Shown in pieces: positions 353 through 10,151 of a DNA stretch of 64,000 nucleotides. Source of the DNA: Candidatus Aminicenantota bacterium (GTDB lineage: Bacteria; Acidobacteriota; Aminicenantia; Aminicenantales; Aminicenantaceae); the NCBI GenBank assembly GCA_030603565.1, contig JAUVXM010000002.1, positions 1 through 64,000 of the forward strand, read 5' to 3'. The notes beneath the pieces were generated by a model, which was given only the letters and a program-made list of their open reading frames with translations, made no database searches and was not told the origin of the DNA. The translations under genes were made by a program, and so were the position numbers. The number at the start of each line of letters is the position of its first letter. Within the stretch, counting starts at the first letter, position 1.

Positions 353-2206
353 ATGGATGGAAAGTCATTGAATCTTACAGAAGAAAAACTTAACAAACTC
401 AAAAAGATTATTCCCGAAGCATTTACGGAAAAGATGATTGATTGGGAAAAGCTGAAAGTCTCTTTAGGTGAAAACATAGAATTTAAAAACGAACGTTATG
501 TTCTAAACTGGGCTGGTAAATCCGATGCTTTCCGGGTATTACAATCTCCGACAACCGCAACTCTGGTTCCGGATAAGGACGAATCCGTTAATTTTGATAC
601 AACCGAAAACATTTTTATTGAAGGGGAAAATCTTGAAGTTTTAAAAGTCTTGCAGAAATCCTATTTCGGCAAAATCAAAATGATATATATTGACCCGCCG
701 TATAATACTGGCAATGATAATTTTATTTATCCCGATAAATTTTCCGAAACCAAAGAAGAATATTTGAGCAGAATCGGAGACAAAGACGAAACCGGTTATT
801 TGACCCGCGAGGGATTATTCCACAAGAACAGCAAAGACAGCGGGCATTATCATAGTAACTGGCTTTCCATGATGTATCCGAGGCTTTTTTTGGCAAGGAA
901 TTTACTGCGGGATGACGGGGTAATTTTTATTTCCATTGATGATAATGAAGTGCATAATTTACGGCTTTTGATGAATGAGGTTTTTGGGGAAGAGAATTTT
1001 GTTGCGGTACTAGTTTGGAGAAGAAGAGCATCATCTGCTTTCGCAGATAACAATGTATCTACAGATCATGAGTACGTTGTATGTTTCCAAAAAGGTAATT
1101 TTTCTGAATATGTTGGAAAAAAGAAGAATTTTAAAAGCTATAAAAATCCAGATAACGATCCTCGTGGTGATTGGGTTCCTGGCGACCTTACTGTTGGAAT
1201 GAATGCTTCTATGAGGCCCAATCAAGCATATGACCTTACAAATCCAAAAACTGGAAAAACATATTCGTATAACCCTAATCGTGTCTGGGCTTATATCCCC
1301 TCATCGATGCAAAAATTAATAGAGGAAAACCGCATTGTTTTTCCAGAAGATATTTCACAACGCCCAATGATGAAACGATTTAAAAATGATCTTAAAGATA
1401 CGAACAATCCTTTTTCGTCATTGATGAATGATGTTGGTTTGAATACAGAAGCAACAAAACAAATACAGAATATTATGGATAGAAACATTTTTGAATATTC
1501 GAAGCCATTATCTCTAAATAAGACAGTTATAGAACAGATAACATCATCAGATTCGGATATTGTCCTTGATTTTTTTGCTGGCTCAGCAACATTTGCACAC
1601 GCCGTCCTTGATTGCAATAAGAACGACGGTCGTAACCGCAAATTCATCCTTGTCCAACTCCCCGAAAAATGCAACGAAAATTCCGAAGCTTTCAAAGCCG
1701 GTTACAAAACAATAGCCGAAATCGGCAAGGAACGCATTCGTCGAGTGATTAAGAAAATTAAAAAAGAACAGGAAGGTAAACTTGATTTAGACGGCAATGC
1801 CAGTAAACAGGATTTAGGATTTAAGGTATTTAAATTACAGAATTCCAATTTTAAAATATGGCGAACGAAGATTGAAAACAAAGAACAGCTTATAGAGCAA
1901 TTGCAGCAACATCTTGAACCGCTTGACAAAAACGCAAAGACAGAAGATGTTCTTTATGAACTGCTTTTAAAGTCCGGCGTTCCGCTTACCGCTAAAATTG
2001 AACAAAAAGACGGTTTTTATCTTATAAATGATAATGAAATTGTTTTAATTCTTGAGAAAGTAGATAAGAAAATCATAAAGACGGTTATTGTTATAAAACC
2101 TCAAAAGGTGATTACAATTGACCGATTATTTAATAACAATGACAAATTAAAAACCAATACCGCATTACAGATGAAAAATGCGGGGATTGAGTTTAAGGTG
2201 GTTTAA
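353..2206 (+). CDS. mod: Type III restriction-modification system DNA adenine methyltransferase (Mod)
   Basis: 617 aa; DPPYNTGND catalytic motif followed by DFFAGSATFAHAV (beta-class motif order); res-like gene downstream. Confidence 0.95.
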   Translation: MDGKSLNLTEEKLNKLKKIIPEAFTEKMIDWEKLKVSLGENIEFKNERYVLNWAGKSDAFRVLQSPTTATLVPDKDESVNFDTTENIFIEGENLEVLKVLQKSYFGKIKMIYIDPPYNTGNDNFIYPDKFSETKEEYLSRIGDKDETGYLTREGLFHKNSKDSGHYHSNWLSMMYPRLFLARNLLRDDGVIFISIDDNEVHNLRLLMNEVFGEENFVAVLVWRRRASSAFADNNVSTDHEYVVCFQKGNFSEYVGKKKNFKSYKNPDNDPRGDWVPGDLTVGMNASMRPNQAYDLTNPKTGKTYSYNPNRVWAYIPSSMQKLIEENRIVFPEDISQRPMMKRFKNDLKDTNNPFSSLMNDVGLNTEATKQIQNIMDRNIFEYSKPLSLNKTVIEQITSSDSDIVLDFFAGSATFAHAVLDCNKNDGRNRKFILVQLPEKCNENSEAFKAGYKTIAEIGKERIRRVIKKIKKEQEGKLDLDGNASKQDLGFKVFKLQNSNFKIWRTKIENKEQLIEQLQQHLEPLDKNAKTEDVLYELLLKSGVPLTAKIEQKDGFYLINDNEIVLILEKVDKKIIKTVIVIKPQKVITIDRLFNNNDKLKTNTALQMKNAGIEFKVV

Positions 2207-2211
2207 GAATA

Positions 2212-2883
2212 ATGAGTTATAAAAGTGCACAATTGATCGACATAAAGGTTGCCGAAGGTGACTATTTCCTCAATGAAATAAAAAATGTCAAATCTAATAT
2301 TTTGATTGTCAACAGTTTGGTAAATGCCTTTGTTTCCTCATGTAGAAATATCACTTTTGCACTTCAATATGTCTTACATAACATTGAGGGGTTTCATGTT
2401 TGGTATAATGAAAAACAAGCATATATGAAAAATAATGCTTATTTTAATTTTTTTAATGAATATAGGCGTTTGTCTATACATAAAGGGCAATATTTTATTA
2501 AATCTGGAGACATGAAAAATAGTAAAATATCATGGTATTTTGATACAATTAAAAACATTCAATTTAATGATGATGTATTTATTGTCTGTAACAAATATTT
2601 TATTGAATTGCTACAACTAATATTTGATTGTTATCAAGAGTTTAAATTTACTCTAAGCGCTAAATGGTATTATACTCAAAATAATTTTACAATGTTAAAT
2701 AAAACTATTTCTGAAGCTGAAAACGAATTGAGGTTTCCGACAAATTGGACTAAAATAAATGGCAATAAAGAAGAATTTCCTAAACGATGGGCTGTTTTAA
2801 GAAGAAATGTAACCAGCTGTGAAATAAATCATTTTTTCAAAATGTATCTTAATAAATGTTTTAAAGAACCTGACGACATTTGA
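2212..2883 (+). CDS. Hypothetical protein, HEPN-like, within R-M island
   Basis: Starts 6 bp after mod; NAFVSSCRNITFALQYVL ... FFNEYRRLSIHKGQYF, with an R-x4-H (RRLSIH) HEPN-like motif. HEPN assignment is by pattern only. Confidence 0.55.
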   Translation: MSYKSAQLIDIKVAEGDYFLNEIKNVKSNILIVNSLVNAFVSSCRNITFALQYVLHNIEGFHVWYNEKQAYMKNNAYFNFFNEYRRLSIHKGQYFIKSGDMKNSKISWYFDTIKNIQFNDDVFIVCNKYFIELLQLIFDCYQEFKFTLSAKWYYTQNNFTMLNKTISEAENELRFPTNWTKINGNKEEFPKRWAVLRRNVTSCEINHFFKMYLNKCFKEPDDI

Positions 2884-2925
2884 AATATGTTGAGATAGAG
2901 TTTATATCAGTATAAGGACAAATAA

Positions 2926-4566
2926 ATGACTGAATCACCATTTAAAATGCAGTTTGATCCTCAAACAATCAAACATCTTGGTGTACGAATGTATTCAAGG
3001 CTTGCACCCGCACTAGCCGAAATTATTTCAAATGCATATGATGCCGATGCAAATAATGTCAGCATTGTTTTGACTGAAAAAAATGGAATTCCCAAAGAGA
3101 TACGGATTGAAGATGATGGAACAGGAATCTCACATAACGAAATCAATAGCAAATTTCTAATAATTGGTAGAAATAGGCGTGATGATGAAGGGGACAAGCC
3201 TTCAAAAAAATACAATCGTTTGCCTACCGGTAAAAAAGGTCTTGGCAAACTTGCTCTGTTTGGACTTGCCAAAACAATTACAATTTCAACAAGGCAATCT
3301 GGGAAACAAAATGAATTTGTATTAGACTGGGATGATTTAATGACAGCTAAAGATAGTTATCGACCTAGGGCAAATAGTATTAACACTGATACAAGTGCTG
3401 CCGATGGTACGGTTATTACTATGGAAGGGCTAAAAAGAAAAACGGCATTTGATTTAAATGAGTTAGCAGACAGTTTGTCTCGAATATTTATTTTTGATAA
3501 CAATTTTAATTTGGTGCTTGAATCACCCTCAGGAGACAGAATCTTAATAGATAATAAGAGAAAATACGGTCTACTTAATGAAGAATTTGAGTGGGATCTC
3601 GAATCCACATTTTTGGTACCTTCAGAATCTGAATATCACAGGAAAATAAACGGTCATCTAATAACTTCGGAAAAACCAATTACCCCTTCTTCCGGTTTAA
3701 GAGGAATAACTCTTTTTTCGCGAGGAAAACTTGTAAATGCTCCAGAATTTTTCTCCAGTAGCACCTCAAGCCACTTTTTCCAATACCTTACTGGATGGAT
3801 AAGTGTAGATTTTATAGATCTCTTAGATGATGATGTTATATCAACGAATCGTCAATCCATAGATTGGGAACATCCCGATATGACCAAATTAAGAAAATTT
3901 CTTTCAGGAATAGTTTCACAAGTTAATGCAGATTGGCGAAAGAGAAGAAAAGAAAAAAAAGCTGCTGATTTAAAGGAAAAAACAGGTATTGATGCAGAAA
4001 ATTGGACAAATACTTTACCGGATGACGTAAAAGAGAACACCAAACGAATTATAGAAACATTGGGTGGTGAAGATGCGCTTGAAAAATACACTCCCGTAAT
4101 CAAAGCCCTTCATGATATTATTCCGGAATACCCCCTTCTTCATTGGCGACATTTGCACGATTACCTAAGAGAAAGAATCAAATCATATTACGAGCATAAG
4201 CAGTACGGGGATGCTGCAAGCCAAGGGGTTCAAATATATTGTGAGATAATAAGAAAACTAACAGACAGAAAAGAGGACGGGACAGCTTTAGTCAATCGAA
4301 TATTCGGGAGTAGCCCTTTTGATAGTCTCCCAGAGGTCCAATTGAATGACTTAGACACAGAATCTAAGAAAAACATTCAGGAAGGGCAAGGCCATTTATC
4401 CAGAGGAGTAGTAACGGGCTTTAGGAACCCCATATCACACGGACCAATTGACACCAATGTCCCTGATTTGTTTACTGAACTTGATTGTCTGAATATTTTA
4501 AGTCTAGTTTCATATCTAATAACTCGAATGGATAATGCCAAGGTGAATGCTTCTTCTGGTAGTTAG
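2926..4566 (+). CDS. GHKL (HATPase_c_3, MORC/MutL-like) ATPase with C-terminal TIGR02391/Ymh-like (HEPN-type) domain
   Basis: N-box EIISNAYDADANNV, G1 EDDGTGI, G2 GKKGLGKLALFG; C-term LNDLDTESKKNIQEGQGHLSRGVVTGFRNPISHG resembles TIGR02391 and has an RX4H motif (RNPISH). Confidence 0.82.
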   Translation: MTESPFKMQFDPQTIKHLGVRMYSRLAPALAEIISNAYDADANNVSIVLTEKNGIPKEIRIEDDGTGISHNEINSKFLIIGRNRRDDEGDKPSKKYNRLPTGKKGLGKLALFGLAKTITISTRQSGKQNEFVLDWDDLMTAKDSYRPRANSINTDTSAADGTVITMEGLKRKTAFDLNELADSLSRIFIFDNNFNLVLESPSGDRILIDNKRKYGLLNEEFEWDLESTFLVPSESEYHRKINGHLITSEKPITPSSGLRGITLFSRGKLVNAPEFFSSSTSSHFFQYLTGWISVDFIDLLDDDVISTNRQSIDWEHPDMTKLRKFLSGIVSQVNADWRKRRKEKKAADLKEKTGIDAENWTNTLPDDVKENTKRIIETLGGEDALEKYTPVIKALHDIIPEYPLLHWRHLHDYLRERIKSYYEHKQYGDAASQGVQIYCEIIRKLTDRKEDGTALVNRIFGSSPFDSLPEVQLNDLDTESKKNIQEGQGHLSRGVVTGFRNPISHGPIDTNVPDLFTELDCLNILSLVSYLITRMDNAKVNASSGS

Positions 4567-4580
4567 CAAAAGAGAAAAAG

Positions 4581-5609
4581 ATGAAAAAAAATAACATTTT
4601 AAATGCAATTGACCTTTTTTCCGGTTGCGGCGGTTTATCCGAAGGATTAAAACAAGCCGGTTTTAACGTTATTGCAGGTGTTGAAGTTGATAAAAACGCA
4701 GCTAAGGCGTACCGCATGAACCATACGGACACCGTTCTTTATGAGGATGACATAAGAAAACTTGATTCTAATGAAATATTGAAGCTTCTTAACGGCAAAC
4801 CCTTGCATCTTCTTGCCGGATGCCCCCCGTGTCAGGGTTTTTCGACAATAAGGAAACTAAATCGTAAATTGGCTGTTCCGGATGAAAGAAACAGTTTGAT
4901 TAATGAATATTATAGATTTGTTAAGGAATTAAATCCGTTAACTATAATGCTTGAGAATGTCCCGAGTATTGTTGATTATACATTATTTAAAACTATCGCT
5001 CGAAAACTTAAAAAACTTGGTTACAATATTACTTATAAAGTCGTTAATGTTGCTGATTATTCCATTCCACAGCGACGGAAAAGATTGGTTTTGGTAGGCT
5101 CTAAAATATGCAAAATTGATATTGCATCAGGAACAAATACACTTACTACCGTTCGAGATGCTCTTGGTAAATTAAAAAATAATGTCAATGACGAGTTGCA
5201 TAAAATTTATCCGAAACATACCGAACATATTCAAAAAATGATTTCATTAATACCTAAAAACGGCGGTAGTAGAAAAGATTTACCGGAACAGTACACGTTG
5301 GAATGTCATAAAAAAAAGAATGTGGGATTTAAAGATGTATACGGAAGGTTGCGCTGGGATAGCGTATCTTCAACAATTACCGGCGGATGTCTGAATCCGT
5401 CAAAAGGAAGATTTTTACACCCGGATGAAGACAGATGCATTTCTGCAAGAGAAGCGTCATTATTACAAACCTTTCCGATTGATTACAAGTTTCCTACCGA
5501 TATTCCAAAAGCCGAACTCGCGTTATTAATAGGTAATGCTCTCCCTCCTGAATTTAGCAGAATACAGGCGGAAAACATTTTTCGTCATATTGAAGAATGT
5601 TATGGCTGA
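4581..5609 (+). CDS. dcm: DNA (cytosine-5)-methyltransferase
   Basis: DLFSGCGGLSEGLKQAGF, GCPPCQGFS, ENVPSI, QRRKRLVLVGS and C-terminal GNALPPEFS motifs. Confidence 0.96.
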   Translation: MKKNNILNAIDLFSGCGGLSEGLKQAGFNVIAGVEVDKNAAKAYRMNHTDTVLYEDDIRKLDSNEILKLLNGKPLHLLAGCPPCQGFSTIRKLNRKLAVPDERNSLINEYYRFVKELNPLTIMLENVPSIVDYTLFKTIARKLKKLGYNITYKVVNVADYSIPQRRKRLVLVGSKICKIDIASGTNTLTTVRDALGKLKNNVNDELHKIYPKHTEHIQKMISLIPKNGGSRKDLPEQYTLECHKKKNVGFKDVYGRLRWDSVSSTITGGCLNPSKGRFLHPDEDRCISAREASLLQTFPIDYKFPTDIPKAELALLIGNALPPEFSRIQAENIFRHIEECYG

Positions 5610-6015
5610 TATTTTTATCAAGGAAAAGCGCTCACAAATAATGAGTAGTATTTCCGGAAAAGACACAAAACCGGAGATGATTATTAGAAAGGCGCTTTTT
5701 TCGGAAGGATATAGATATAGACTACATAGGAAAGATTTACCGGGTAAGCCGGATATTGTTTTTCCAAGCAAAAATAAAGTGATTTTTATTAACGGTTGTT
5801 TTTGGCACGGCCATAATTGTAAGAAAGCTGCTTTACCGGCAACCAATAAAAGTTTTTGGGAAAAGAAGCTAACAGGCAACAAAGAGAGAGATAAGCGGAA
5901 TTTGGCAAAATTAAAAGCTATCGGTTGGAAAAGCTTGGTGATTTGGCAATGTCAAATAAAAAAGAACACGCTTGAAGCTCAAATCAATAAGATAAAAGCA
6001 TTCTTGGAAAAGTAA
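5602..6015 (+). CDS. vsr: Very short patch repair endonuclease (Vsr)
   Basis: Start MADIFIKEKRSQIMSSISGKDTKPEMIIRKAL; FINGCFWHGHNCKKAALPATNKSFWEKK. ORF-track start at 5536 is too early; ATG 5602 overlaps the dcm stop by 8 nt. Confidence 0.94.
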   Translation: MADIFIKEKRSQIMSSISGKDTKPEMIIRKALFSEGYRYRLHRKDLPGKPDIVFPSKNKVIFINGCFWHGHNCKKAALPATNKSFWEKKLTGNKERDKRNLAKLKAIGWKSLVIWQCQIKKNTLEAQINKIKAFLEK

Positions 6016-6031
6016 TAGGAATTCTCAATAG

Positions 6032-8656
6032 ATGAAACTCCACTTTGACCCAAACCAAAAGTTTCAGCACGATGCAATAAACTCGATTGTCGGCATATTT
6101 GAGGGACAACCTTTAAACCAGGGCGATTTCAGTTTTTCGATAAGTAGTGAAAGCTACATGTTTCAGGACGGTGGTGTTGGAAACAGACTTGAAATAAGCG
6201 AAGAACAGATTCTAAATAATGTTAAGGTAATACAGAAGAAAAATGAGTTAATTGTTTCCGATAAATTGGACGGAATGAATTTTTCCATTGAAATGGAAAC
6301 CGGAACCGGAAAAACTTATGTTTATCTCCGCACAATTTACGAATTGAATAAAAAATACGGATTTAAAAAATTCGTTATTGTTGTCCCCTCAATAGCCATT
6401 CGTGAAGGCGTATTAAAAAACCTTGAAATAACCTTTGAGCACTTTCAGAATCTTTACGATAAGACGCCGCTTAATTTCGATGTTTACGATTCCAAAAGGG
6501 TTTCCAATTTAAGAAATTTTTCCATCAATAATAACATTCAGATCCTTGTTATAAATATCGATTCCTTTGCCAAGGATGAAAACATAATCAATAAACCCAA
6601 CGACAAACTGACCGGCAAAAAACCGGTAGAGTTTATCCAGGCAACCTGCCCGATTGTAATCGTGGATGAACCGCAGAATATGGAGACGGAGATCAGAAAA
6701 AAAGCAATTGATAACCTGAATCCGCTCTGCACTCTGCGCTATTCCGCCACCCATATCAACCGTTACAATATGGTCTACAGCCTTGACCCGGTGAAAGCCT
6801 ATGACATGGGGCTGGTCAAGCAGATAGAAGTTGATTCCATTGTCACGGAAAATGACTTTAATGAAGCATTTCTTTGCCTTGAAAAAGTAGCCGCAACAAA
6901 AACCCGCACTTCCGCTAGAATTAAAATAGATTTAAATACGCCTGACGGTGTTAAAAGGAAATCCGTTACCGCAAAGGTCGGAGATGATTTATACGATTTA
7001 TCCAATAAAAGAGAGATTTATAAAAACGGATACATTATAAACGGTATTGATGTTGCAGAAAATCTGATAGAGCTTTCTAACGGTGAAACAGTTTTTACAG
7101 GTGATACATTCGGCGGGCTTTCCGATGAGATCAGGAAGGTTCAGATTCGCAAAACAATTGAAGAACACTTTTTAAAAGAACGAAAGCTAAAAAATAAAGG
7201 TATAAAAGTCCTTTCTCTTTTTTTTATTGACCGGGTAGCCAATTACCGTGATTATGATTTTGACGGCAATCCGGTTAAAGGCAAACTCGCCAAATGGTTT
7301 GAAGAAATATATACGGAATTATCTTCAAAACTCGCTTACAAAGATTTGATTCCGTTTAATTCGGAAGAAGTCCATAACGGCTATTTTGCAGCTGATAAAA
7401 AAGGCAAATGGAAAGACACGAAGGGAAACACACAGGCAGACAATGATACTTTTAAGCTTATAATGAAAAACAAAGAAAGGCTTTTAGACACTGATGAACC
7501 GTTGAGGTTTATTTTCAGCCATTCCGCTTTGCGTGAGGGATGGGACAATCCCAATGTTTTTCAGATATGTACATTAAATGAAACGCAATCGGAACTTAAA
7601 AAGAGACAGGAAATAGGTAGGGGATTAAGGCTTTCGGTAAATCAGGATGGAATTCGTATACAGGACACCAATATTAACCGATTAACGCTTGTTGCCAATG
7701 AATCTTATGAAGATTTTGCCAAGCAGTTGCAGAAGGAAATAGAAGAAGATTGCGGAGTATCATTTAAAGGCAGAATCAAAAATAAACGGAAAAGAACAAC
7801 TGTCAAATACCGAAAAGGATTTGAACTGGATGAAAAATTCAAAGATATCTGGGACAAGATTAAATATCAAACCACCTATCGGGTTGAATACGATACCGCC
7901 GAACTTATTAAGAAAGCAGCAAAAACCGTTAATCAAATGCCCTCTACCGGAAAAGCGGTTATAAAAACAACAAAAACCGCACTTGAATTTGATGAAGCCG
8001 GTATTATTATGGAAACAAAAGCCTCTTATATGACATCACTTGACGGCATGTTTTTAATACCTGACATCCTTTTTTACATACAGGAAAGAACGGAACTTAC
8101 ACGTTCCACAATTTTTGAAATTCTTAAGAAATCCGGGAGAATAAGTGAAGTTTTAATTAACCCGCAGCTTTTTCTTGATAATGTCGTTACTGCCATAAAA
8201 GATGTTCTCACGGAACTGGTGATTGAAGGTATAAAATATGAAAAAATCGGCTTAAAAGAATATGAAATGCGGTTGTTTGAGGACTATGAAATACATATCA
8301 ATGACCTGACATTTAAAATAAATAAGAAAGATAAAACCATTTACAGCAATCTTTTTCCGCTTGACTCCAATGTTGAATATGAATTTGCCAGAGAATGTGA
8401 AAGCAGAGATGACATTGAATTCTATTTTAAGCTTCCCTTCCGGTTTAAAATTAAAACACCAATCGGAAATTATAACCCTGACTGGGCTTTGATTAAAAAG
8501 AATGAAAAAACGGTTTACTTTGTCGCCGAAACCAAATCGGCAGGACAGGAATTAAAAATAAGTGAAAAAAGAAAGATAAAATGCGGGTATGCTCATTTTA
8601 ATGAATTTGAAGATGTTAAATATAGGCAAGTAGCGACAGTAGGAGAATTGGATTAA
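6032..8656 (+). CDS. res: Type III restriction endonuclease subunit R (SF2 helicase-nuclease)
   Basis: Walker A METGTGKTYVYL, IVDEPQNM, REGWDNPNVF, QEIGRGLRL; C-terminal PDWALI...VYFVAETKS PD-(D/E)xK-like nuclease motif. Confidence 0.96.
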   Translation: MKLHFDPNQKFQHDAINSIVGIFEGQPLNQGDFSFSISSESYMFQDGGVGNRLEISEEQILNNVKVIQKKNELIVSDKLDGMNFSIEMETGTGKTYVYLRTIYELNKKYGFKKFVIVVPSIAIREGVLKNLEITFEHFQNLYDKTPLNFDVYDSKRVSNLRNFSINNNIQILVINIDSFAKDENIINKPNDKLTGKKPVEFIQATCPIVIVDEPQNMETEIRKKAIDNLNPLCTLRYSATHINRYNMVYSLDPVKAYDMGLVKQIEVDSIVTENDFNEAFLCLEKVAATKTRTSARIKIDLNTPDGVKRKSVTAKVGDDLYDLSNKREIYKNGYIINGIDVAENLIELSNGETVFTGDTFGGLSDEIRKVQIRKTIEEHFLKERKLKNKGIKVLSLFFIDRVANYRDYDFDGNPVKGKLAKWFEEIYTELSSKLAYKDLIPFNSEEVHNGYFAADKKGKWKDTKGNTQADNDTFKLIMKNKERLLDTDEPLRFIFSHSALREGWDNPNVFQICTLNETQSELKKRQEIGRGLRLSVNQDGIRIQDTNINRLTLVANESYEDFAKQLQKEIEEDCGVSFKGRIKNKRKRTTVKYRKGFELDEKFKDIWDKIKYQTTYRVEYDTAELIKKAAKTVNQMPSTGKAVIKTTKTALEFDEAGIIMETKASYMTSLDGMFLIPDILFYIQERTELTRSTIFEILKKSGRISEVLINPQLFLDNVVTAIKDVLTELVIEGIKYEKIGLKEYEMRLFEDYEIHINDLTFKINKKDKTIYSNLFPLDSNVEYEFARECESRDDIEFYFKLPFRFKIKTPIGNYNPDWALIKKNEKTVYFVAETKSAGQELKISEKRKIKCGYAHFNEFEDVKYRQVATVGELD

Positions 8657-8710
8657 GAAGCGTTTTCGCACATCGGATGCTACAGCGGAATAAAACGGGC
8701 TATCTCAAAT

Positions 8711-8887
8711 ATGACGAAAGGAAAAAGCATATATAACAAATCGTTAGAACTCCGTTCGGAAGAACATCAGGAAAAAGTCTTAATCATTAAAAATGTCCCA
8801 CGCTATCCAGAAATCATTGACAAAGGAACCAGCGCATTTCTGCACAATCCTGCCTTCGCCGCCTCCAACCGCATAAAATATGAATAA
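8711..8887 (+). pseudogene. Short coding remnant after res
   Basis: MTKGKSIYNKSLELRSEEHQEKVLIIKNVPRYPEIIDKGTSAFLHNPAFAASNRIKYE*; the frame is open directly after the res stop (EAFSHIGCYSGIKRAISN-M...). Protein-like, family unknown. Confidence 0.3.
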
Positions 8888-8990
8888 TGTTCGGCTACAG
8901 GCCGCCCCATTTATTTAGGCCAAGCCAGTGAAATTTAGCTGAGATTGTCATGAACAAAAAAAATTTGAATAAGATTTTGAAGAGTGTCTC

Positions 8991-10151
8991 TTATATACCA
9001 CGATGCAGGCATGCAACCGGAAGTAGATGAACCTGATTAATTTGAGCATATTCTGTTCCTGAGTAGAATAAATATTTTTGAACCGGACGTTTTAATTGCT
9101 TTTCAAATTCAATCAGATTATTGATGTCACGTTTAGACGGATTTTGAGTGGATTTGATTTCTATGGCATAAAGTTGATTTTCAGATTCAAAGATCAGGTC
9201 AATTTCACGTCCGGCTTTAGTTTTGTAGTAAAAAAATTGGTCTGTTTTAATGAATCCCAGTTTTCTTCTTTTTTCCAGTTCTGCCAGGACAAAATTTTCA
9301 AACACTTGACCTTCAGTGATATTTGTATTAAAGCTTTTTATTATTCCAGTATCAGAAAAATATGATTTTGCGGCTTTAACATATCGTTTAGCCGGACCAT
9401 ATTGATATCCATACAGCTTGAATATAAGCTGTGATTGAAGCAATGTATTTAAATATTTTTTTGTGGTGGGGTAGCTGATCCCGGCTTCTCTGGCAAAATT
9501 GGAGACCTCGAGATGTGATCCAATTGAGCGGATTAAATGATTAAAAATAGCATATAACCCTTCTATGTTTTCTATATTACTAAGCTGCATTAAATCGCGT
9601 GTAAAATATGTATTCTTATAATTTGTCAGAAGTTCGTATTTGTTCTCAGTTTTTGTCGTGGTGAGAATTTCCGGGAATTGGCCGTATAATATAGCTTCTT
9701 GTGTTTTTCTGTTTGCCTCTGCCAATGCCCTTAATGCAATTTGGTCATGGAAAATACTATGAGTATGACTGCCCTCATTTTCACCCCAACAAGCAGTTGG
9801 TAAGGAATACAGGTTGATCCGCCCGGCAAGTGTATCTGCTGTGGAATCAAGAAGACCTATTGAACTCGAACCTGTCATCAAAAAATGGGCTTTTTCATTG
9901 TCTATTGCATACTTGGCAGCAATGGTTAATTCCGGATACCTTTGAATCTCATCTATAATTGCTCTGTCCCCCAATTGGGCTATAAATCCTTTTGAATCTT
10001 TTTTTGCCCAATTCAAGGCATCAAGGTCATCAAGAGTGATATAATTGTAATCAGGAAATTGTGATTTTAATAATGTGGTTTTACCACATCTTCGCGGCCC
10101 TAGAATAAGGCAACTCTTATTTGTTTTTAACTCTATCCATCTTTTAAACAT
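8991..10151 (-). CDS. ATP-binding protein, AAA_14 / DUF4143 family
   Basis: LILGPRRCGKTTLLKSQF Walker A, AIIDEIQRYPEL Walker B, C-terminal FYYKTKAGREIDLIFES...YAIEIKS. Confidence 0.94.
   Translation of the reverse strand: MFKRWIELKTNKSCLILGPRRCGKTTLLKSQFPDYNYITLDDLDALNWAKKDSKGFIAQLGDRAIIDEIQRYPELTIAAKYAIDNEKAHFLMTGSSSIGLLDSTADTLAGRINLYSLPTACWGENEGSHTHSIFHDQIALRALAEANRKTQEAILYGQFPEILTTTKTENKYELLTNYKNTYFTRDLMQLSNIENIEGLYAIFNHLIRSIGSHLEVSNFAREAGISYPTTKKYLNTLLQSQLIFKLYGYQYGPAKRYVKAAKSYFSDTGIIKSFNTNITEGQVFENFVLAELEKRRKLGFIKTDQFFYYKTKAGREIDLIFESENQLYAIEIKSTQNPSKRDINNLIEFEKQLKRPVQKYLFYSGTEYAQINQVHLLPVACLHRGI

Follow-up and report, generated by a model that had tools for sequence, protein, structure and literature searches.

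How does a restriction-modification (R-M) operon come to carry four additional genes between its modification and restriction genes, and do these genes serve the host system or constitute a system of their own? The question is raised by a six-gene operon at positions 353-8656 of the window, i.e. the whole 64,000-nt stretch of DNA analysed; wherever loci are compared below, the window is represented by this operon.

A type III operon with four genes between mod and res

All six open reading frames are intact and run in the same direction (Table 1), and the distances between successive genes from mod to res are 5, 42, 14, -8 and 16 bases; a preliminary description had put the first at 6 and gave the other four as found here. 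Mod matches N6_N4_Mtase (PF01555, E = 1.6e-34) in Pfam and MTase_III in PADLOC over residues 3-615 (E = 8.3e-200), and DPPYNTG and FAGS motifs are seen in its translation. Res is recovered by ResIII (PF04851, E = 1e-16) and RE_endonuc (PF19778, E = 5e-32) in Pfam and by REase_III in PADLOC (E = 0). A Mod-family protein and a Res protein with an SF2 helicase and a C-terminal nuclease, encoded in one operon, identify the system as type III R-M.

Within it, Dcm matches DNA_methylase (PF00145, E = 7e-58) and TIGR00675 (170.7 bits against a cut-off of 100.65), with the PCQ motif lying in GCPPCQGFS, while Vsr matches TIGR00632 (144.8 bits, cut-off 97.85) and the Vsr family PF03852 (E = 9e-33). The locus is a type III R-M operon with hepn?, ghkl, dcm and vsr between mod and res: both the mod/res pair with four co-directional genes between them and the earlier calls of dcm, vsr and a GHKL ATPase with a TIGR02391-like C-terminus are borne out by the reading frames and family matches. 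A promoter scan of the operon returned sites no commoner than in shuffled sequence.

Table 1. Features of the six-gene operon (positions in the 64,000-nt window)
Feature	Position	Strand	Length	Description
mod	353..2206	+	617 aa	type III N6-adenine methyltransferase; chassis gene 1
hepn?	2212..2883	+	223 aa	accessory gene
mod-end copy	2894..2915	+		probable duplicate of the 3' end of mod, now decayed (EIEFISV-stop); lies between hepn? and ghkl
ghkl-Ymh	2926..4566	+	546 aa	
dcm	4581..5609	+	342 aa	C5-cytosine methyltransferase
vsr	5602..6015	+	137 aa	very-short-patch T:G mismatch nicking endonuclease
res	6032..8656	+	874 aa	type III SF2 helicase with C-terminal endonuclease domain; chassis gene 2
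mod-res cargo slot	2207..6031	+	3825 bp	

A restriction-enzyme ATPase joined to a HEPN domain

The GHKL-Ymh protein combines an ATPase part of the BbrUII/HgiDII restriction-enzyme type (residues ~6-379; HATPase_c_3 in Pfam, E = 4.6e-23) with a C-terminal Ymh HEPN domain (residues ~408-537), which is recovered by both Hypoth_Ymh (PF09509, E = 9.6e-20, 71.1 bits against a gathering cut-off of 25) and TIGR02391 (E = 5.3e-28, 97.6 bits, cut-off 39.45). It is not a full-length member of the BbrUII/HgiDII family (NF050001), scoring 223 bits against a cut-off of 550 and aligning only to profile positions 1-398 of 659, whereas a true HgiDII-type protein from Rhizobium (locus L011) scores 830 bits over nearly the whole profile length. 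The Ymh-type proteins of the window and of L020, L022 and L027 align only to positions 1-407 of 659, after which each continues with a TIGR02391 match. By these profile alignments the GHKL protein is a domain swap, in which the HgiDII-type N-terminal ~380 aa were kept and the C-terminal half was exchanged for the Ymh HEPN domain.

R500, P502 and H505 of its RNPISH motif (R500-NPIS-H505, R-x4-H) are invariant in 8/8 aligned relatives, in keeping with the catalytic R-x4-6-H signature, and R-x4-H is also present in three further relatives (RNPVQH, RNPLTH and RSPLSH). Alternatively, the Ymh domain may lack catalytic activity and serve in dimerisation or RNA binding. The predicted fold of the protein, from a model of modest confidence, resembles GyrB, Hsp90, MutL-type and MORC4 structures, the last being one match among many GHKL proteins. 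Profile searches of solved-structure sequences likewise matched Hsp90/MutL ATPase domains; searches of these with single sequences gave no useful match.

A variable slot and an exchanged gene block

In all 20 related type III operons inspected, mod and res are neighbours with cargo or nothing between them: nine hold other cargo, nine have mod and res adjacent and two are ambiguous. The cargo includes IetAS (IetA and IetS identified by PADLOC at E = 1.7e-142 and 2.7e-276), a PD-T4-6-like kinase, DUF1016, RhuM, GmrSD and PLD genes. The mod-res junction of these operons is a cargo slot for varied defence modules. At L055, duplicated res 5' and mod 3' ends flank the PLD gene, which suggests that cargo may enter by a single crossover at the chassis ends.

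The complete order mod-hepn?-ghkl-dcm-vsr-res recurs at L017, in a Cloacimonadota MAG; L018, in a Parcubacteria MAG, has the other five genes in this order but lacks hepn?. The nested order with ghkl is hence known from two genomes besides the window, with L016, cut off upstream, as a third; the window and L016-L018 are all MAGs or metagenome-type assemblies, in which misbinning or chimeric assembly is possible. L017 and L018 support a composite island of the sort envisaged previously, here a type III operon that houses an m5C module equipped with a GHKL-HEPN effector, and they answer the concern that no other genome might keep the six genes together, the order being kept with six genes in the one and five in the other. 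They also rule out that the gene order is conserved only by chance.

A dcm/ghkl(/vsr) core stands by itself, lacking type III genes, at seven loci, the hosts including Neisseria gonorrhoeae, Desulfobacteraceae, an archaeon, a contig of a viral collection, Cloacimonadota and Patescibacteria. The viral collection yielded no match to a single GHKL protein and three loci to an alignment query. The idea that the four internal genes are an independent cassette thus holds for dcm-ghkl(-vsr) but not for hepn?, which was not found at any of the standalone loci.

The nested genes differ in history from their flanks. Synonymous divergence (dS) is 0.20-0.48 for ghkl and 0.23 for hepn?, against 1.0 to saturated, mostly saturated, for the flanking genes. 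In AU tests the ghkl tree rejects grouping the window with L018 (p = 0.001), whereas the other genes reject grouping it with L017 (dcm, p = 6e-4; vsr, 2e-4; mod, 7e-5; res, 1e-122). The edges of the similarity block spanning ghkl, with or without hepn?, fall at gene boundaries. Strong synonymous constraint as the source of the ghkl similarity was rejected, as remoter ghkl relatives drop to 66-72% DNA identity. The divergences, trees and block edges argue that the ghkl block, with or without hepn?, moved between operons of remotely related bacteria independently of its flanks, probably by recombination.

A mechanistic interpretation

Building on the gene content, the domain swap, the conserved catalytic motif, the variable slot and the conflicting phylogenies, we favour, with a probability of roughly 0.55, a reading of the nested module as a Dcm-protected, ATP-gated HEPN-RNase defence, presumably abortive, borne on a type III chassis. 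The operon would act as a chassis whose mod-res junction takes whole defence modules; Dcm would methylate host DNA as the self-protection of the nested module, Vsr would repair the T:G mismatches left by deamination of 5-methylcytosine, and GHKL-Ymh would take the place of the restriction enzyme. Its HgiDII-type N-terminal half is presumed to sense unmodified or foreign DNA via ATP-driven dimer closure; instead of cutting DNA, the protein would activate its HEPN RNase, which would cut cellular RNA (perhaps tRNA) and so halt infection by dormancy or death. Mod and Res would restrict on their own by the normal type III mechanism, while ghkl, with or without hepn?, would be handed from one such operon to another through recombination at gene boundaries. 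More tentatively, the mod-res junction might be an active exchange site at which GHKL-HEPN moves alone, gene-exact and across phyla, while the specificity genes diverge; the effector would therefore be independent of the paired methylation sequence, and could serve as a generic "kill module" for any Dcm.

Alternatively, all six genes might form one integrated system, with Mod and Dcm protecting, Res and GHKL-Ymh acting jointly, and the HEPN RNase serving as a PrrC-like fail-safe that guards the type III complex and fires only if its restriction or modification is blocked. In type I operons, PrrC is a guard of this kind. This precedent, the strictly uniform gene direction, the very short gaps and the recurrence of the order in the Cloacimonadota and Parcubacteria MAGs all fit such a system, and a PrrC/RloC-like role has been proposed for Ymh-paraMORC fusions (Anantharaman et al., 2013; PMC3710099). 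However, dcm-ghkl(-vsr) occurs alone at the seven loci, the same chassis family holds many unrelated cargos or none, and the history of ghkl conflicts with those of mod and res, which makes full integration unlikely. The earlier proposal that two methylases "share or back up" two nucleases is unsupported. Because the slot cargo is varied or missing and the history of ghkl differs from those of mod, dcm, vsr and res, the nested genes would seem to be separable modules; their independence is evolutionary, and functional cross-talk with Mod/Res may occur.

The accessory protein

The hepn? product is mostly helical and carries an RRLSIH motif at residues 85-90. Searches of Pfam, NCBIfam and PADLOC assign it to no family, and its distant homologs at L011, L012 and L028 keep R85 and have lost H90, so that neither a family match nor a conserved R-x4-6-H places it among HEPN proteins. 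Its AlphaFold model is helical but unreliable (mean pLDDT 45) and too poor for a fold search, its profile has no useful match among solved-structure sequences, and no homologs were found in phages and viral contigs. Where the preliminary description spoke of two HEPN-motif proteins, the GHKL C-terminus is the one that is supported, and the absence of a family match together with the loss of H90 leaves a second HEPN effector without support.

Nineteen of the 22 bases of the probable mod-end copy (Table 1) are identical to the mod end of L018 (GIEFKSV-stop), which there directly abuts ghkl. At the corresponding place in L017, 25 nt match that locus's own mod end at 84% (E = 0.002); the window copy resembles the mod end of its own operon less well (29 nt, 76%, E = 0.02). 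As this probable decayed copy lies between hepn? and ghkl, it suggests that hepn? entered at the 3' end of mod.

The protein might form a two-component RNase with GHKL-Ymh, in which it would act as a HEPN toxin or antitoxin, given that hepn? adjoins ghkl, was exchanged together with it in the window and L017 (85% identity), and has a distant homolog behind the true HgiDII-type gene of Rhizobium. Yet hepn? is missing from L018 and the standalone loci, and a stop shortens the L017 copy to 191 of 223 residues; these points, with the lost histidine and the want of a HEPN family match, render the partnership rather improbable.

Vsr, repair and assembly

dcm adjoins ghkl at every locus with a visible flank, and vsr is present at most; at L019 and L030, which lack vsr there, the gene after ghkl encodes an HhH-GPD glycosylase. 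GHKL-Ymh might assist Vsr and Dcm as a MORC/MutL-like factor for DNA remodelling or repair, with a structural HEPN domain, in a module that mainly limits the mutagenic cost of 5-methylcytosine. In E. coli, MutL is a partner of Vsr, and the MutL- and MORC4-like GHKL fold and the steady Vsr or glycosylase neighbour agree with such a role. We regard it as less probable still, for the catalytic-type R-x4-H motif is invariant in an otherwise divergent domain, the N-terminal half is nearest to restriction enzymes rather than MutL, and patchy, horizontally moved operon cargo ill suits housekeeping repair. As the glycosylase stands in where Vsr is absent, Vsr is better read as repairing deaminated 5-methylcytosine within the Dcm-protected defence favoured above.

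Finally, it is very improbable that the ghkl/hepn? similarity arose by assembly graphs switching at a shared gene, even though the window, L017 and L018 come from MAGs or multi-contig drafts: the exchanged blocks differ by 6-12% in DNA among four separately deposited assemblies, far from identical k-mers, the window mod and res fall in one chassis clade in their trees, and independent studies recovered the same architecture.

Significance and comparison with known systems

The locus offers a concrete case of layered immunity, in which an R-M operon serves as chassis and the contents of its slot can be exchanged, and of a restriction enzyme that has become a predicted RNase through replacement of its C-terminal half. 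Should GHKL-Ymh function with unrelated Dcm proteins, as the mosaic histories suggest, mixing effectors and methylases could help to show what MORC-type GHKL ATPases sense in R-M systems, a question of long standing; the mod-res slot is also a place to seek new defence genes in type III operons.

The fusion of Ymh HEPN domains (PF09509/TIGR02391) to paraMORC GHKL ATPases in R-M operons has been published (Anantharaman et al., 2013; PMC3710099), and the domain fusion, genomic setting and predicted RNase motif are alike here; the accessible part of that account does not describe nesting between mod and res, gene exchange between operons or the swap of the HgiDII nuclease half. With the BbrUII/HgiDII enzymes (NF050001) the window shares the N-terminal ~380 aa, the adjacent dcm and the frequent vsr, but has HEPN in place of the C-terminal ~260 profile positions. 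Prokaryotic MORC/paraMORC operons (Iyer, Abhiman and Aravind, 2008; PMC2292703), in which a GHKL+S5 protein is accompanied by a DNA methylase, Vsr and a type III-type helicase, keep similar gene company. A MORC-like sequence in the window, GITLFSRGKLV, has K where their motif GhXhhpXXRhl has R, whereas a Neisseria relative keeps the R (GITLFANGRMV); the window further differs in its HEPN C-terminus and in that its helicase belongs to a complete mod-res pair whose slot takes unrelated cargo. Compared with the PrrC/RloC anticodon nucleases, the ATPase-gated HEPN effector tied to R-M is alike (as predicted here), but the ATPase is GHKL rather than ABC, the protein is not known to act as an anticodon nuclease, and it is not a member. 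Other R-M loci likewise have defence genes embedded between their subunit genes, as when DarTG2 or PrrC lies within an hsd gene set ("guilt-by-embedding"; Payne et al., 2024 preprint, cited in PMC12255303), and the hsdS-hsdR gap has been termed a potential recombination hotspot; relative to these cases, the window extends such embedding to a type III host and the mod-res site, with signs of cargo entry and phylogenetic evidence of movement between chassis.

A type III operon enclosing a GHKL-Ymh module

The operon comprises six intact, co-directional ORFs, with intergenic gaps of 5, 42, 14, -8 and 16 bases. Family matches to both Mod and Res identify them as a type III pair, and the 3825 bp slot between their genes holds a gene for a 223-aa protein, ghkl, dcm and vsr. 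As the window begins at base 1 of its 82,633-base contig, 352 bases are visible upstream of mod.

The 546-aa GHKL protein matches positions 1-398 of 659 in NF050001, the BbrUII/HgiDII restriction-enzyme profile (223 bits; cut-off of 550 not reached), and this part is followed by a match to the Ymh HEPN domain (TIGR02391/PF09509) at residues 410-537. Relatives lacking Ymh (the compared loci L010, L011, L013, L029 and L030) match the profile through to its end. Thus, as judged from the profile matches, the Ymh domain took the place of the restriction enzyme's nuclease half, or the reverse swap occurred. R500, P502 and H505 are invariant across eight aligned sequences, and additional relatives display RNPVQH, RNPLTH or RSPLSH. 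The predicted structure (mean pLDDT 60) yields fold matches to GyrB, Hsp90, MutL-type and MORC4 ATPase structures, a modeled likeness that supports the ATPase half only. At the MORC signature GhXhhpXXRhl the protein reads GITLFSRGKLV, with K where the signature has R.

Searches of Pfam, NCBIfam and PADLOC found no family for the 223-aa protein, and both its identity as a HEPN protein and its role are unproven. R85 is retained, and H90 is replaced by K, in three homologs at 20-26% identity: L011 on a Rhizobium plasmid, L012 in Methylobacterium and L028 from the window's phylum. R-M genes do not adjoin the Methylobacterium homolog, and the L017 copy has a stop, ending at residue 191.

Coordinates and gene content of the window and of compared loci
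Locus	Positions	Strand	Content
Window	353-8656	+	mod, 223-aa gene, ghkl, dcm, vsr, res
Window	2207-6031	+	mod-res slot
Window	8991-10151	-	AAA_14/DUF4143 ATPase gene adjoining the operon, convergent with res
L009, N. gonorrhoeae	7107-9644		dcm and GHKL-Ymh frames in pieces; vsr intact
L011	8962-10457		223-aa homolog immediately 3' of dcm and a true HgiDII-type gene; next, a 191-aa gene without family match, PIN-like by eye
L016, Bacterium BMS3Abin15			ghkl-dcm-vsr; sequence ends upstream of ghkl
L017, Candidatus Cloacimonadota			mod-223-aa gene-ghkl-dcm-vsr-res
L018, Candidatus Parcubacteria			mod-ghkl-dcm-vsr-[76 aa]-res
L018	5176-5406		76-aa ORF without confident family match
L019	806-1522		HhH-GPD glycosylase gene 3' of ghkl, at the expected vsr place; sequence ends on the upstream side
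L030	3742-4377		HhH-GPD glycosylase gene, likewise placed
L020, L021/L009, L022			dcm-ghkl(-vsr); type III genes absent
L027, L077, L078, L079			additional standalone loci
L051	3901-7642	-	slot: IetA (PADLOC E 1.7e-142) and IetS (2.7e-276), a complete pair
L052	4977-7609	-	slot: PD-T4-6-like kinase and uncharacterized 204-aa ORF
L054, L059			slot: DUF1016
L055	7752-9369		slot: PLD nuclease gene
L058, L063			slot: RhuM
L060, L062			slot: GmrSD/DUF262

Distribution and independent exchange of the ghkl block

Searched with the linker and Ymh region, 84,980 species genomes yielded seven loci. The nested loci have ghkl followed by dcm, and the standalone ones dcm followed by ghkl; the broken N. gonorrhoeae cassette is a standalone form that has decayed. 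At the DNA level ghkl occurs in one of 38 genomes of the window's family, the window's own, and the other GHKL matches in its phylum (396 genomes; ≤41% identity) end at or before residue 416, that is, without the Ymh half. The gene is therefore patchy in these lineages and was probably acquired.

Among the window, L016, L017 and L018, ghkl shows dS of 0.20-0.48 (88-94% DNA identity) and the 223-aa gene 0.23 (91%), whereas mod, dcm, vsr and res range from 1.0 to saturation; identity falls at two edges, the mod end and the dcm start. Among the operons compared, the mod-res chassis nearest to that of L017 is the kinase-bearing L052, and those nearest to the window's are L018 and the IetAS-bearing L051. 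In AU tests, ghkl rejects a window+L018 grouping (p 0.001), while window+L017 is rejected by dcm (6e-4), vsr (2e-4), mod (7e-5) and res (1e-122). Taken together, these sequence conflicts indicate that the ghkl block moved independently of its neighbors. Since L017 and L018 bear different phylum names and share ghkl at dS 0.36 despite saturated flanks, the exchange would span phyla, unless the contigs are misbinned.

The mod-res slot as a site of cargo

Of 20 related type III operons, picked as best matches rather than sampled randomly, nine hold cargo in the mod-res slot, nine have mod adjoining res (L053, L057, L061, L064, L065, L067-L070) and two are ambiguous (L056, L066). A limited literature search found no description of this slot. 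A 2024 preprint by Payne and colleagues reportedly deals with the embedding of defense genes in R-M operons. That theme is already known (PMC12255303).

As to entry, bases 2894-2915, 3' of the 223-aa gene, share 19 of 22 positions with the L018 mod end and match the window's own mod end weakly, as a short repeat (E 0.02). At most, this suggests that the 223-aa gene entered at the mod 3' end, with a mod-end copy left behind. In L055, the PLD gene has a 284-nt copy of the res 5' end on one side and a 129-nt copy of the mod 3' end on the other, both at 78%; such duplicated chassis ends are what a single crossover by a circle bearing a mod-res junction would be expected to leave.

Proposed mechanism and relation to known systems

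Most likely, the nested module acts on its own, apart from Mod and Res. Beside the observed gene content, domain swap, motif, slot and exchange, its workings are predictions: Dcm would mark self DNA and Vsr would repair deamination, with a glycosylase doing so elsewhere, as if the HhH-GPD enzymes of L019 and L030 filled Vsr's T:G repair job. GHKL-Ymh would sense unmarked or foreign DNA, upon which its HEPN domain would cut RNA, with a presumably abortive outcome. Possibly, GHKL-Ymh instead guards the type III system, its RNase firing only when restriction or modification is inhibited, in the manner of PrrC. The R-M operons to which Iyer et al. 2008 (PMC2292703) assigned such GHKL proteins also encode Dcm, Vsr and type III-type helicases. 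The Ymh-GHKL fusion is itself not new, because Anantharaman et al. 2013 (PMC3710099) had reported Ymh-paraMORC in R-M operons and proposed a PrrC/RloC-like role.
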